Of a DNA stretch of 64,000 bases, positions 18,726 through 56,267 are shown one piece after another. Position 1 is the first letter of the stretch. Every line of letters begins with the position of its first letter. The translations under genes and the position numbers were made by a program. The notes below the pieces were generated by a model. It did no database searches, was not told where the DNA came from, and saw nothing but the letters and a program-made list of their open reading frames with translations. This DNA comes from Casimicrobium huifangae (GTDB lineage Bacteria > Pseudomonadota > Gammaproteobacteria > Burkholderiales > Casimicrobiaceae): the NCBI RefSeq assembly GCF_009746125.1, contig NZ_CP041352.1:585847-649846 (forward strand), read 5' to 3'.

Positions 18726-18830
18726 CTAGGGCGGGACGCTAGCGGTCCCGCCGTATGCTGTGTCGTGCGGTCATAGTCGGATGGCGCTGTGCTGCTGCGT
18801 TCGGCGGAACCGCTAGCGTTCCGCCCTACG
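18726..18830. repeat. paired GCTAGC-loop hairpins (BIME-like)
   Basis: Two perfect 8-bp hairpins lie about 50 bases apart in opposite orientation. The first is GGCGGGAC/GTCCCGCC (18730-18737 and 18745-18752) with loop GCTAGCG. The second is GGCGGAAC/GTTCCGCC (18803-18810 and 18818-18825) with loop CGCTAGC. The reverse complement of the second matches the first closely, including a flanking GTAGG or CTAGG. The stems differ by compensating changes, as in REP elements. Confidence 0.65.
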
Positions 18831-20140: not shown

Positions 20141-20315
20141 GCAGGACGAAGGACGAATGACGACGCTCCCGGCGGTCGCTAGGACGCAAAGCTCGGCCAC
20201 CTTTTTTTGAGAAGAGGGATAGAAGTGATCGCGATTGGCACATGCAGAACCTTTAACTACGCAGAGACACGCAAGCCACGCTTTGCGTCATTCGTCATTC
20301 GTCACTCGTCCTCGG
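20141..20315. repeat. long inverted repeat of GACGAATGAC-like units, copy A
   Basis: The left arm (20141-20166) carries AGGACGAAGGACGAATGACG; the right arm (20285-20313) carries the complementary GTCATTCGTCATTCGTCACT. A nested 9-bp pair ACGCAAAGC (20184-20192) with GCTTTGCGT (20280-20288) extends the stem. The region ends 10 bases before the pyrF ATG. A second example with the same units is at 23955-24044. Confidence 0.6.
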
Positions 20316-21284: not shown

Positions 21285-21402
21285 CAACTCGACAGCAGAA
21301 AGCCCATCCAGACTCGGCTTTGTGCGTGAAATGATAAAAAGTCGACATTTGCTATTTTATTGCGACGAGCCCAATACTAATGCGGTTTACGATAAAAAGC
21401 TG
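21285..21402. repeat. TCGA-centred palindromic intergenic repeat, copy 2
   Basis: Centred on GTCGAC at 21341-21346, ending AAAAAGCTG at 21394-21402. The reverse complement of its right arm closely matches the left arm of copy 3 (shared CAGCTTTTTATCG, CCGCATT, TGGGC, AAATAGCAAAT). Its own left arm has drifted. It ends 17 bases before the prmC start. Confidence 0.75.
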
Positions 21403-23954: not shown

Positions 23955-24044
23955 CAGGACGAATGACCAATGACGAAGGACGAAAAAGTGATGACCGGGA
24001 GCGTAACGCGTTTTCGTCACTCGTCCTTCGTCATTCGTCCTTGC
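23955..24044. repeat. long inverted repeat of GACGAATGAC-like units, copy B
   Basis: The left arm AGGACGAATGACCAATGACG, then AAGGACGA (23956-23983), is complementary to the right arm TCGTCACTCGTCCTTCGTCA, then TTCGTCCTT (24015-24043). The central loop is GC-rich (AACGCGTT). It uses the same units as copy A at 20141-20315 and lies between the esterase gene and ychF. Confidence 0.65.
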
Positions 24045-29553: not shown

Positions 29554-30717
29554 ATGAAAATCGTTCTCGCTCCCGACTCGTTCAAGGGTTCGCTCTCGGC
29601 CGAGAGCGTCTGCGACGCACTGCAGACCGGCCTCAAGCGGGTGCTGCCCGCTGCCGAAATCGTTCGCCGGCCCATGGCTGACGGCGGTGAGGGAACGCTC
29701 GACGCGGTGGTCACCGCGCTGGCGAGCAGCGGCGGCGCGCGCCGCAAACAGGCGCTGGTGAAGAACGCGGCCGGGCAGTCCGCCGAGGCGGCCTATGCGC
29801 TGATCAAGCATGGCATTTACGAAGCGGCGGTGATCGAGGTGGCACAGATCGTCGGCATTGAGGACGCGCACAACATGGCGATCCCGGTGGCGGATCGTTC
29901 CAGCTACGGCGTGGGCGAGCTGATCCGGCTGCTGCTCACCGAGGGCATCCGGCACTTTTTTGTCGGCTTGGGCGGCACCAGCAGCAACGATGGCGGCGCC
30001 GGGCTGCTGGCGGCGCTGGGTGTCAAATTCACCGGCACCTTCCGGCGCGAGATTGCGCCGTCGCCGAACGGTCTTGCCAAGCTCATTTCGGTGGACGTCA
30101 CCGGCCTTGACGCGCGGCTGGCCGACTGCGAGATCACGCTGCTGTCGGACGTGAACAATCCGCTCACTGGTGAGCGTGGCGCTACGGCGATTTTTGGCCC
30201 GCAAAAGGGCGTGGCGATGCACGACGTGGCGAAGCTCGACGCCGTGATCGACGCCTACGCCGACCGCCTTGAAGCGGCGCTGCAACGGCACGCGAAGGAC
30301 AAACCGGGTGCCGGCGCGGCGGGCGGTTTGGGTTACGCGCTACAACTGCTCGGGGCGAAGTTTGAATCGGGCGCGCAGACGGTGGCGCGACTGACCGGCC
30401 TGGCCGACGCCTGCAAGGGCGCCGACTGGCTGATCACCGGCGAAGGCCGCAGCGACGCACAAACGCTGCTCGGCAAGACACCGTTCGCCGCCGCGCAAAT
30501 TGCCCGCGAGTACGGCAATGCCGGTCTCAAGGCCACGCTGCTGAGTGGTGGCGTGGACGCCACGGCGCTCGCTGCGTTGAATGAAACCTTCAACGGCGGC
30601 TGCTTCTCTATCGTCCCCGGCCCGATGGCGCTCGATCAGGCCGTCATCCGCGCGCCGGAGCTGCTGGCGAACGCCGCCGAGCAGATTGCCCGGATCGCCG
30701 GTCTGCACGCGCGCTGA
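29554..30717 (+). CDS. glycerate kinase (GarK/GlxK family)
   Basis: A 387-residue glycerate 2-kinase of the GarK family, phosphorylating D-glycerate with ATP. Motifs: MKIVLAPDSFKGSLSA start, PMADGGEGTLDAVV, GLGGTSSNDGGAGLLAALG, and LITGEGRSDAQTLLGKTP near residue 290. The ATG at 29554 is preferred over a GTG six bases upstream because KIVLAPDSFKGS is the conserved beginning. No glyoxylate genes are adjacent. Confidence 0.92.
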   Translation: MKIVLAPDSFKGSLSAESVCDALQTGLKRVLPAAEIVRRPMADGGEGTLDAVVTALASSGGARRKQALVKNAAGQSAEAAYALIKHGIYEAAVIEVAQIVGIEDAHNMAIPVADRSSYGVGELIRLLLTEGIRHFFVGLGGTSSNDGGAGLLAALGVKFTGTFRREIAPSPNGLAKLISVDVTGLDARLADCEITLLSDVNNPLTGERGATAIFGPQKGVAMHDVAKLDAVIDAYADRLEAALQRHAKDKPGAGAAGGLGYALQLLGAKFESGAQTVARLTGLADACKGADWLITGEGRSDAQTLLGKTPFAAAQIAREYGNAGLKATLLSGGVDATALAALNETFNGGCFSIVPGPMALDQAVIRAPELLANAAEQIARIAGLHAR

Positions 30718-30723
30718 GGCAAG

Positions 30724-30841
30724 CAGCTTTTTATCGCGAGCCGCATTGGCTATGGGCGTAATGCCAGAAATAGCAAATAGTCGATAACTGCTATTTTGAT
30801 CCGGTAAGCCCAGATCGAATGCGGCTTAAGCCAAAAAGCTG
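30724..30841. repeat. TCGA-centred palindromic intergenic repeat, copy 3 (best preserved)
   Basis: A 118-base element with perfect 9-bp termini CAGCTTTTT (30724-30732) and AAAAAGCTG (30833-30841), symmetric around TCGA at 30781-30784. Without gaps the two 59-base halves share further blocks: AGCCGCATT, TGGGC and AAATAGCA. It lies between the convergent glycerate kinase and YfcG genes. No open frame spans it and no target duplication is obvious. Confidence 0.85.
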
Positions 30842-36865: not shown

Positions 36866-36986
36866 CAGCAACTTTTCGAAGAAAGCCTCATTCTAATTGG
36901 GCTCCGCACTGCAAAATGCCAAATGTCGACTATTGGCCATTTCGCCGTTCAAGCCCAACAAGATCAGGGCTTCAGTGAAAAAGCTG
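36866..36986. repeat. TCGA-centred palindromic intergenic repeat, copy 4
   Basis: Centred on GTCGAC at 36925-36930, with left end CAGCAACTTTTC and right end GTGAAAAAGCTG. Inner pairs are AATTGGGCT with AAGCCCAAC and AAATGCCAAAT with ATTGGCCATTT. Its right arm codes for the last residues of the sauS-like gene (stop at 36964-36966), and it lies within the minus-strand catabolic cluster. Confidence 0.75.
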
Positions 36987-54149: not shown

Positions 54150-54578
54150 ATGAAAAACAACAAAACCCAGCGCGCGCAGCGCGGCTTCACGCTGATGGAG
54201 CTTCTCGCGGTCATCGTGATCATTGGCGTGCTCGCCGCCACGATCGGCAGCCGCTTCCTCGGTCAGACTGAAAAAGCCAAAGCGGGCGCTGCGAAGGCGG
54301 AGATGGGCCAGATCGTGCAGGCGCTTGATCTTTTCAAGCTTGAAGTAGGCCGTTACCCAAATGCACAGGAAGGTCTGGAAGCCTTGATCAAGAATCCGGG
54401 CAACTTGCCCAACTGGAGCGGGCCGTATTTCCGCAAGGACAACATCAAGGATCCGTGGAGCAACGACTATAAGTACACGGTTCCGGGGCCGAACAACACG
54501 CCGTTTGAGTTGAAGTCACTCGGCGCCGATGGCAAAGAGGGCGGCGAGAATGAAAACGCCGACATCGTCAAAAGCTGA
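54150..54578 (+). CDS. gspG: major pseudopilin GspG
   Basis: A 142-residue pseudopilin. The class III signal RGFTLMELLAVIVIIGVLAA is processed after Gly12, with Glu at position 5 of the mature protein. The pattern KAEMGQIVQALDLFKLEVGRYPNAQEGLEALI and DPWSNDYKYTVPG is diagnostic of GspG. It forms the T2SS pseudopilus shaft. It opens the second half of the operon after a repeat-bearing 240-base gap. Confidence 0.96.
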   Translation: MKNNKTQRAQRGFTLMELLAVIVIIGVLAATIGSRFLGQTEKAKAGAAKAEMGQIVQALDLFKLEVGRYPNAQEGLEALIKNPGNLPNWSGPYFRKDNIKDPWSNDYKYTVPGPNNTPFELKSLGADGKEGGENENADIVKS

Positions 54579-54604
54579 CCTTCTGCTGGTGTAGCGGACG
54601 AATC

Positions 54605-55135
54605 ATGACTGTGGCCGGAAACTCGCCCGCCCTGAGCGGTGGCGAAGCACTCACGGCCGTCCAGCGCGACAACCGACGGCCGCGCAAGCACCACCTCCGC
54701 GTGGCCGGCTTCACCATGCTCGAGTTGCTGGTGGTCATCGTCCTGATCGGCGTGCTCGCCGCGATCTCGCCACCGATATTCTCCAATGGCGTCAGCGCTG
54801 CCGAGCATCGGGCGCTGGCGCGCAGCGTTGCGCAGACGTTGCGTTTCGCGCGCAGCGAGGCGGTCGCCAACCGCACCGACGTTGGCGTCGAATTCAACCT
54901 GCAGGACCGTACCTTCCAGTTGCCCGACGGCAAGCGCAAGGGCAAGTGGCCGGAGAACATCGCACTCGAATTGACGACCACGGCCGCTGAGACAGTGGAT
55001 GAAAAGCGCGCCTACGTACGTTTCTACGCCGACGGTGGTTCGACCGGTGGGCGCGTCACGCTCAAGTACAAGGAGCGTGAGTACCGCATCGACATCAGCT
55101 GGCTGACCGGCCACATTGCGATTGAAGAGGCATGA
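54605..55135 (+). CDS. gspH: minor pseudopilin GspH
   Basis: A 176-residue protein with the pseudopilin motif VAGFTMLELLVVIVLIGVLAAIS at about 33-55. It has a hydrophilic leader of about 34 residues before the cleavage site, long for a prepilin; a shorter in-frame GTG (54701) would leave only three. The rest resembles GspH (RTDVGVEFNLQDRTFQLPDGK). It is followed by gspI with a four-base overlap. Confidence 0.88.
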   Translation: MTVAGNSPALSGGEALTAVQRDNRRPRKHHLRVAGFTMLELLVVIVLIGVLAAISPPIFSNGVSAAEHRALARSVAQTLRFARSEAVANRTDVGVEFNLQDRTFQLPDGKRKGKWPENIALELTTTAAETVDEKRAYVRFYADGGSTGGRVTLKYKEREYRIDISWLTGHIAIEEA

Positions 55136-55557
55136 ACCGCACTTCGCAGCGCAAGGCTCGCGGCTTCACGCTGCTGGAGGTGATCGTCGCCGTGGTCATT
55201 GCAGCGTTGTGCCTGTCGGCCCTGGCGCAGGTGTTCGCCACTGGTGTCCGCGCCGCCGGCACGGCCAGTGACTACACGCGGGCGGTGACGCTGGCGCAAT
55301 CGCTGCTCGCTGGTGCTGGAGTGGAAAAGGCGCTCGAAGACGGAGCGGAAGGCGGCACCACTGCAGATGGCAAGCTGGCCTGGACACTCACCGTTACGCA
55401 GGAGCCGACGGAAGACGCTGACGCGCTGGTGCGGCCGCCGCTGGAACTCAAGCGCGTCATTGCGCGGGTGAGCACCGTCGAGGCCGACGCCAGCGTTACG
55501 CGCCCACGTGTGGTGGAACTCAGTACCTTGCTGGCGGTGCCGAGGCCTACGCCATGA
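55132..55557 (+). CDS. gspI: minor pseudopilin GspI
   Basis: A 141-residue pseudopilin with RGFTLLEVIVAVVIAALCLSALAQVF after an 11-residue leader. It forms the tip complex with GspJ and GspK. It overlaps both neighbours by four bases (ATGA). Confidence 0.9.
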   Translation: MNRTSQRKARGFTLLEVIVAVVIAALCLSALAQVFATGVRAAGTASDYTRAVTLAQSLLAGAGVEKALEDGAEGGTTADGKLAWTLTVTQEPTEDADALVRPPLELKRVIARVSTVEADASVTRPRVVELSTLLAVPRPTP

Positions 55558-56267
55558 TGGCCGCGCACCCAATCCTCCGACGCTCTCGCGGCTTCACGCT
55601 GATTGAGCTGCTCGCCGCGATTACCCTGCTCGCGCTGCTGACAGCGATCCTGATGGGGACTGTGCGCGGCGCCGAGCGCTCCACCTCGGCCGCCACCGAG
55701 GTCGGCGAGCGCACCGAGCAGTATTCGCGGACGCAGGCGTTTCTGCGTGAGCATCTGGCGGGTGTGCTGCCCATGCGGTGGCGTCGTGAAGTGGGGCAAC
55801 CGCTCAAGTTCGCCGGCCGCGCCGACAGTCTTGTTTATCTGGCGCCGATCACTTCGCAAATTGCCACTGGCGGCGTCAACTGGTGGCAGTTGACGGTGGC
55901 GAAGTCGTCGGGTAACACGCCGCGCGGGCAGCTGGTGTTGCGCCGCGCCGCCCCTGATCCGGAAGAAAAGGTCGTGCCTGAGATCCCGGCCGCCGATGCC
56001 ATCACGCTGGCCGACAACATTGAGTCGCTGACACTCGCTTACTTCGATCCGGGTGACGATCCGCTCAACAACCCCGATGCCGGCACCTGGCGCGACAGTT
56101 GGGACGAGAACGCGCGCATGCCGACCATGATCCGGGTGCGCGTGGTCGAGCAGGGTGGCCGCCAATGGCCCGATTTGACCGTCGCGCTCAAGCTGACGCA
56201 GGCGCTCGGCTGCAATTTCGACTTCCAGCGCCAGCGCTGCATCATCCAGGGCGTAGCCAATCGATGA
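55554..56267 (+). CDS. gspJ: minor pseudopilin GspJ
   Basis: A 237-residue pseudopilin with RGFTLIELLAAITLLALLTAIL near the start. The rest is beta-rich as in GspJ (RREVGQPLKFAGRADSLVYLAP, ENIESL-type segments near 160). It ends with the small Cys-containing LGCNFDFQRQRC. It overlaps gspK by four bases. Confidence 0.9.
   Translation: MMAAHPILRRSRGFTLIELLAAITLLALLTAILMGTVRGAERSTSAATEVGERTEQYSRTQAFLREHLAGVLPMRWRREVGQPLKFAGRADSLVYLAPITSQIATGGVNWWQLTVAKSSGNTPRGQLVLRRAAPDPEEKVVPEIPAADAITLADNIESLTLAYFDPGDDPLNNPDAGTWRDSWDENARMPTMIRVRVVEQGGRQWPDLTVALKLTQALGCNFDFQRQRCIIQGVANR

Follow-up and report, generated by a model that had tools for sequence, protein, structure and literature searches.

A 118-bp dyad-symmetric intergenic element, evenly spaced along the chromosome of Casimicrobium huifangae, as a possible chromosome-organising site

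The chromosome of Casimicrobium huifangae carries a family of two-fold symmetric elements of fixed length, built from conserved boxes, which are evenly spaced (strongly so in this one genome), lie between genes, keep their positions among relatives and undergo a turnover of their motif from species to species. In the genomes searched, the element is restricted to one genus of Burkholderiales. We propose tentatively, rating it at slightly less than an even chance, that it is the site for a large symmetric nucleoprotein complex dividing the chromosome into units of about 10 kb, with a binding protein and a function that we infer. With less confidence still, the elements may represent a previously undescribed class of chromosome-organising site, a 118-bp dyad found every 8–12 kb chromosome-wide, read by a rapidly diversifying putative protein and acting as boundaries of supercoil or loop domains; our literature searches returned no title or abstract opening describing such a family.

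The source genome (G000) is a single contig of 4,465,898 bases (4.47 Mb), and the window is the whole stretch of 64,000 nt from it that was analysed. A sequence-only reading of the window had described five palindromic repeats there, and all five were found when the sequences were read, aligned and folded (Table 1). Its coordinates are near-identical to those given by the profile, except that copy 4 starts at 36869 and not at 36866. As it had also noted, all five copies end in AAGCTG and are centred on GTCGAC, replaced by GTCGAT in copy 3, and copy 3 has 9-bp perfect termini. In our folding, copy 3 reaches -47.5 kcal/mol. This copy starts 6 bp past the stop codon of a predicted gene ending at 30717.

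Table 1. Copies of the 118-bp element in the window, and the boxes of copy 3
Feature	Position in window	Mirror position	Strand	Positions in element	Evidence
Copy 1 of the 118-bp dyad element	4159/4160-4275		+		Profile match, 67.3 bits; profile includes window copies
Copy 2 of the 118-bp dyad element	21285-21402		+		Profile match, 65.1 bits; profile includes window copies
Copy 3 of the 118-bp dyad element	30724-30841		+		Profile match, 84.2 bits; profile includes window copies
Copy 4 of the 118-bp dyad element	36869-36986		+		Profile match, 80.9 bits; profile includes window copies
Copy 5 of the 118-bp dyad element	53954/53955-54070		+		Profile match, 72.3 bits; profile includes window copies
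Copy 3, left end box CAGCTTTT	30724-30731	30834-30841		1-8	Logo, 126 copies
Copy 3, left inner boxes, consensus CC.CATT...TGGGCT	30741-30758	30807-30824		18-35	Logo
Copy 3, A/T-only box	30768-30770	30795-30797		45-47	Logo
Copy 3, central TCGA (dyad centre)	30781-30784			58-61	Logo; five partial elements end there

The window also holds other features. Another repeat, a GACGAATGAC-type sequence of 31 nt, occurs in copies of mutually inverted orientation at 20282-20312, 23956-23986 and 24011-24041, and a GC-rich 32-nt inverted repeat (88% complementary, 38-nt gap) at 18727-18828. Directly after copy 5, at 54150-56267, four consecutive ORFs have starts that read GFT(L/M)(M/L/I)E, which we take to be a prepilin-like motif, perhaps of a type II secretion or pilus cluster.

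The repeat family extends far beyond the five copies. A BLAST search of the source genome with copy 3 returned 23 matches, mostly weak; two of these loci are window copies 2 and 3, and of the other 21, 19 match a profile of the five copies, two only half. A first scan covered 1.264 Mb, made up of the window and 60 dispersed stretches of 20 kb, and yielded 102 matches at E<1e-3, 91 of which span about 95 model positions or more, with a best match of E=0.52 in the reversed sequence. A symmetric model run on 1.60 Mb (1.604 Mb) of the genome gave 136 matches at E<1e-3, 126 of them full (116-118 bp), and the reversed-sequence control gave none at this threshold (best E=0.45). Extrapolation from these 136 matches predicts about 379 elements genome-wide, and the mean of 1.63 per 20 kb in the 60 stretches, taken by itself, about 365, so that some 365-380 copies are expected. 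A model-free pattern, consisting of CTTTT, TCGA and AAAAG at fixed distances, is matched 123 times in the genome and its reversal 0 times. Element counts given here are from profile scans, and genes from a simple purpose-made predictor.

The symmetrised logo of the 126 full copies reads CAGCTTTT, GAAA, CC.CATT, TGGGCT and an A/T-only box, mirrored about the centre AAAAGTCGACTTTT. Five kinds of box thus occur on both sides of a sixth, the central one; their spacing is fixed and indels are few. Sequence variation is far from uniform: GGGC at positions 31-34 is 92-98% conserved and 99-100% of symmetrised copies have A or T at positions 46-47, with a pairwise identity among full copies averaging 53% and reaching 70% in the best pair. 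The information content of this logo, about 81 bits, far exceeds what is needed to mark some 370 places in 4.5 Mb; this excess could reflect several proteins or a replicating ancestry. Ten matches to the full symmetric model are partial, of which five end at position 61-62 (or its mirror), the far edge of the central 4 bp, one at 69 and four elsewhere. A half model, whose reach is limited to its 61 positions, found six complete halves outside longer matches, scoring 30-44 bits, compared to a median of 29 bits for half-matches overall, and two insignificant matches; by eye, unrelated sequence begins in the six just past TCGA or one base later. Because these half elements break off near the central TCGA, the element seems to be built from two separable half-sites sharing it, on the evidence of few half elements.

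Most matches in the source genome (127/136) lie between two predicted genes, the midpoint of two falls within a weak gene prediction and seven are at stretch ends; matches inside a predicted gene amount to 0/34 in G011, 2/25 in G006 and 4/26 in G002, three relatives from the same genus. In the source genome, convergent gene pairs are enriched at elements (38/127 vs. a background of 82/543) and divergent pairs are depleted (18/127 vs. 140/543), and between co-directional genes (n=71) the element is at a median of 45 bp from the upstream stop and of 95 bp from the next start. Convergent pairs are not enriched in G011 (6/34 vs. 25/144), where divergent pairs are frequent at elements (14/34 vs. 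41/144), and they make up 5/23 of the pairs in G006 and 5/21 in G002.

Elements are spread along the chromosome more evenly than expected by chance. In 584 contiguous kb of the source genome, 48 elements show a mean spacing of 12.2 kb with a CV of 0.55, compared to 0.96 +- 0.13 for random placement in the 217 intergenic regions that measure 100 bp or more (P ~5e-5), and only 2 of the 47 intervals are below 4 kb, vs. 12.2 expected. Likewise, counts in the 60 separate 20-kb stretches are under-dispersed, with a variance of 0.68 around the mean of 1.63, and 0 of 20,000 Poisson simulations gave a value as low. The trend is common to the three relatives, being significant in G006 (CV 0.54, P 0.006), borderline in G011 (CV 0.71, P 0.064) and not significant in G002 (CV 0.71, P 0.15). 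The longest gaps within the 584 kb comprise 36 kb of core genes, among them those for Lon, GMP synthase, a DnaX-type protein and alanine racemase by Pfam (10 of 27 predicted genes scanned), and 31 kb with an integrase-bearing island. A strict rule of one element per 10 kb does not hold, because the 36-kb gap contains core genes, and the idea that long gaps are acquired islands was rejected for this largest gap. The 31-kb gap is likely such an island, containing an integrase, AbiV and a STAND NTPase (8 of 32 predicted genes scanned). The island (L159:4122-5180 and L141; genome 691.7-722 kb, outside the window) has a tyrosine integrase (Phage_integrase and Phage_int_SAM_4) and, near it, an AbiV-like protein, a metallophosphatase-STAND NTPase and small ORFs; it has no 118-bp elements inside and looks like a defence or integron-like island.

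The sequence model matches 16 of the 17 genomes of the genus, including its own, none of 13 genomes from outside the genus and, with stricter filters that lose weak matches, none of 43 other family members. A model made from G006 and G002, using 40 of their 50 listed copies, matches seven of nine genus members and none of 31 other family genomes, from sister genera. The simple pattern is found in 24 out of 200 genomes of the order (five of the genus), with more than two matches only in the source genome (123) and in G008 (5), and reversed controls reach 3; its counts in the 17 genus genomes are 181, 151, 123, 121, 119, 112, 96, 94, 92, 25, 6, 5, 1, 1, 0, 0 and 0. A strict pattern, with a sensitivity of 7 out of 40 distinct known copy sequences, retrieved 40 stretches from the genomes of 84,980 species, all of them in the three metagenome assemblies JAFEDD (titled Proteobacteria), JAPUER (Betaproteobacteria) and JANXNO (Burkholderiales). 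No plasmid matches copy 3 by blastn. The 2.6-Mb genome G016, from the same genus, has no element by either model or by the simple pattern; the element was possibly lost there, and genes absent from this genome could point to the putative binding protein. Elements in G014 and G010 have a TTCGAA centre replacing GTCGAC, a further species version.

Comparison of gene borders indicated that elements keep their places among relatives. At the border of copy 3, 17 loci were compared with the model from the source genome: five (G000, G011, G005, G001 and G015) have an element at E<1e-3, and G007 (E 0.008), G012 (E 0.08) and G004 (E 0.4) give weak matches, with ends and centre visible by eye; the other nine loci (G013 included, one locus incomplete) show no usable match to this model. 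The source genome has an element at 16/22 borders with an element in G011, vs. 2/160 without; the corresponding values are 9/13 vs. 6/124 for G006 and 4/16 vs. 8/84 for G002, and the distinct sites behind these counts, in the fetched stretches, are 11, 8 and 3, respectively. The ortholog table was entered by 95/123, 69/81 and 52/64 reciprocal best hits (at least 50% identity), and its gene-side slots are not independent. Identity to the source genome at 4-fold codon sites is 0.63 for G011, 0.41 for G006 and 0.44 for G002 (first 60 pairs only).

The 11 orthologous pairs of elements from the source genome and G011 are 0.62 identical, compared to 0.60 for unrelated pairs, the latter in their better orientation; box positions are 0.80 identical and spacers 0.45, a contrast that partly restates the family consensus. 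Shared borders together with spacers of such low identity fit a history in which the place was kept while the spacer sequence was lost, and replacement in place may also account for them. With the same reservation that the contrast partly restates the consensus, boxes kept at fixed spacing between drifted spacers were seen at orthologous places (11 pairs with G011, 8 with G006 and 3 with G002), as would be looked for in an architectural site. The distant relatives G006 and G002 have their own consensus each, with matching ends in register; their models were grown from weak seeds and extended to 118 positions, with length partly imposed, and reversed controls of the final models gave E values of 4.9 or higher. 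Correlations among the four species are 0.68-0.97 for the A/T profile of the element and 0.27-0.91 for its information profile. Hundreds of sites in one genome appear to shift their motif together, many of them in place and without visible copy-and-paste.

The sequence-only reading saw in the repeats hairpins whose arms vary with the structure kept, and offered a mobile non-autonomous element, a structured RNA or a protein-binding repeat as their nature. Copy 3, with a self-complementarity of 0.61, is above typical and ranks 8 out of 126, which explains its hairpin look. Nevertheless, the compensating stem changes that the reading itself had pointed to were sought and not found: RNAalifold on 22 copies retained four pairs only, with a covariation term of -0.01; the full hairpin pairs in 60.7% of cells in these copies vs. 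60.1% with the 3' letters shuffled among copies, the observed value being reached in 137 of 500 shuffles, and in 126 copies arm identity is 0.514 within a copy vs. 0.511 between copies (permutation p=0.28). Pairing falls to 33-45% when partners are slid by 1-3 columns, as expected of any dyad consensus. As the arms are no more alike within than between copies, the symmetry is a property of the common pattern and not of a selected hairpin, and a long-hairpin structure was dropped. Copy 3 folds well and elements are near stop codons in the source genome, as could be expected of a family of structured RNAs or terminators; however, with no covariation, no hit to Rfam at gathering thresholds anywhere in the window and a symmetric box pattern that has no strand, we give this possibility hardly any credence.

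Of the three options, the protein-binding repeat is supported, indirectly, by boxes at fixed spacing about a dyad and by the lack of within-copy covariation. We infer protein binding, the kind of protein and a domain function. Each element would be a recognition site in double-stranded DNA, neither RNA nor active transposon, and a two-fold symmetric composite whose two 61-bp half-sites would have the central TCGA in common. It would be bound by a large and symmetric assembly of protein, either several dimers or one dyad enzyme spanning about 118 bp, with contacts at fixed distances to the centre and to the end, inner and A/T boxes. An intergenic site kept every 8-12 kb would divide the chromosome into roughly 10-kb units, with the bound complexes as putative topological or looping anchors (domain boundaries), and the recognition motif would co-evolve with the protein to give species-own versions, largely at the same places. 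The boundaries of the supercoiling domains of about 10 kb in bacterial chromosomes are usually regarded as mobile and not tied to a given sequence; if our proposal is true, sequence-marked, evenly spaced sites across the genus would make domain boundaries directly mappable and removable.

The best named candidate for the protein, by length, symmetry and 4-bp centre, is DNA gyrase. The elements could be strong sites for gyrase or another type II topoisomerase, spaced out near gene ends, where the enzyme would wrap some 118-130 bp symmetrically and make cuts staggered by 4 bases at TCGA, although we see this as unlikely. A geometry of this type, with 118-bp symmetry and a TCGA centre, is seen in the element and would fit the E. 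coli gyrase motif, which passages of PMC6379681 describe as symmetric and of about 130 bp; the shorter distance to the upstream stop than to the next start at the 71 co-directional pairs and the five of ten partial matches ending at the far edge of the central 4 bp also agree with it. However, the strongest period of the arms is 7.5 bp (0.128), with only 0.075 at 10.75 bp, the G/C period reported for gyrase, and a gyrase-like G/C period was rejected as the main arm period; the whole element has periods of 9.75 and 7.75 bp of similar strength (0.108 and 0.105, respectively). Additionally, a slowly evolving enzyme would hardly be expected to have sites with sharp boxes and with a motif that changes from species to species. 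An old MITE family that was mobile in the past, REPIN-like or other, would account for intergenic placement, two inverted halves, singlet halves, hundreds of copies and an information content beyond the need of a binding site, and has in its favour a slight excess of 2-bp flanking repeats (0.198 vs. 0.129 expected, 106 copies). Nevertheless, flanking repeats of 3 bp are at 0.019 vs. 0.016 expected, and there are none at the tested lengths of 4-9 bp (106 copies), so that no target duplication of 3 bp or more exceeds chance. The genome does have four RAYT-like (PF01797) matches, three above the family cut-off, but none is flanked by elements, the nearest lying 4.0, 4.3, 2.5 and 3.2 kb away. A best pair of 70% identity among the 126 full copies, the missing compensatory excess, complete halves that are not decayed (30-44 bits vs. 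a median of 29), gene borders shared with relatives, and 0 matches in viral contigs by the strict pattern (which catches 7/40 known copies) argue in the same direction, as does even spacing, REPINs being randomly distributed in extragenic space according to passages of PMC3116915. Membership in the REPINs was rejected on the four features tested (copy identity, compensatory arms, RAYT flanking and random distribution), and a once-mobile origin of this sort appears improbable to us.

The remaining two readings concern a tag and a relic. Species-specific versions of an intergenic sequence found across the whole sampled chromosome recall a DNA uptake sequence, a tag by which DNA is recognised as self in natural transformation and which is evenly spread and differs in dialect among species, and CAGCTTTT and AAAGTCGA are indeed more frequent than expected outside full elements (77 vs. 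39 and 56 vs. 31, respectively). Known uptake sequences have 10-12 bp, whereas the element has 118 bp and about 81 bits, and one copy per 12 kb is sparse. Out of 10 box words counted outside full elements, with the six half elements left unmasked, CAGCTTTT, CAGCTTTTT (an extension of CAGCTTTT) and AAAGTCGA are enriched about 2-2.5 fold and the other seven are at or below expectation (e.g., AGTCGACT, 5 vs. 15); furthermore, the 10-mers with the strongest over-representation lack the boxes. Since most boxes are not enriched outside the element, and two short ones about twofold, we consider an uptake tag very unlikely. An ancient ERIC-like intergenic repeat, without present function, would agree with the similar size and imperfect palindromic look of the element, and with the fact that the putative binding protein was not found. 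Such a relic is quite unlikely, given that some positions are nearly invariant and others random, that spacing is even, and that gene borders are shared where 4-fold codon sites are about 41% identical.

Compared with known systems, the proposed chromosome-organising site shares symmetry, a length of about 120-130 bp, a 4-bp centre and, in the source genome, placement close to 3' ends with the E. coli gyrase motif and the strong gyrase site of Mu, and differs from them in its sharp boxes and in that 10.75 bp is not its main arm period. REPINs and BIMEs are likewise intergenic, with inverted halves, hundreds of copies and some singlets, but the element has no near-identical copies, compensatory arms or RAYT flanking, is evenly spread and shares its borders among relatives. 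DNA uptake sequences from Neisseriaceae and Pasteurellaceae are also genome-wide and have species dialects; these are short words in far more copies, with a strongly over-represented short core, whereas the element is a 118-bp composite and most of its boxes are not enriched alone. The ERIC elements of enterobacteria are imperfect palindromes of about 120 bp between genes, as in our case, although copies of the element average 53% identity and have nearly invariant boxes, even spacing and species versions within one genus. The matS sites bound by MatP, and others of this type, are, as proposed here, dispersed chromosomal sites for an architectural protein; however, they are confined to one macrodomain, instead of extending along the whole chromosome, and the element is about ten times longer. 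Lastly, 400-500 supercoiled domains in E. coli and domains of 10 kb in bacteria are reported in the abstracts of PMC3820752 and PMC3420936, compared to about 370 elements at 12 kb here, and it is this closeness in number and spacing that leads us to favour a chromosome-organising anchor as the possible role of the element, within the tentative terms given above.
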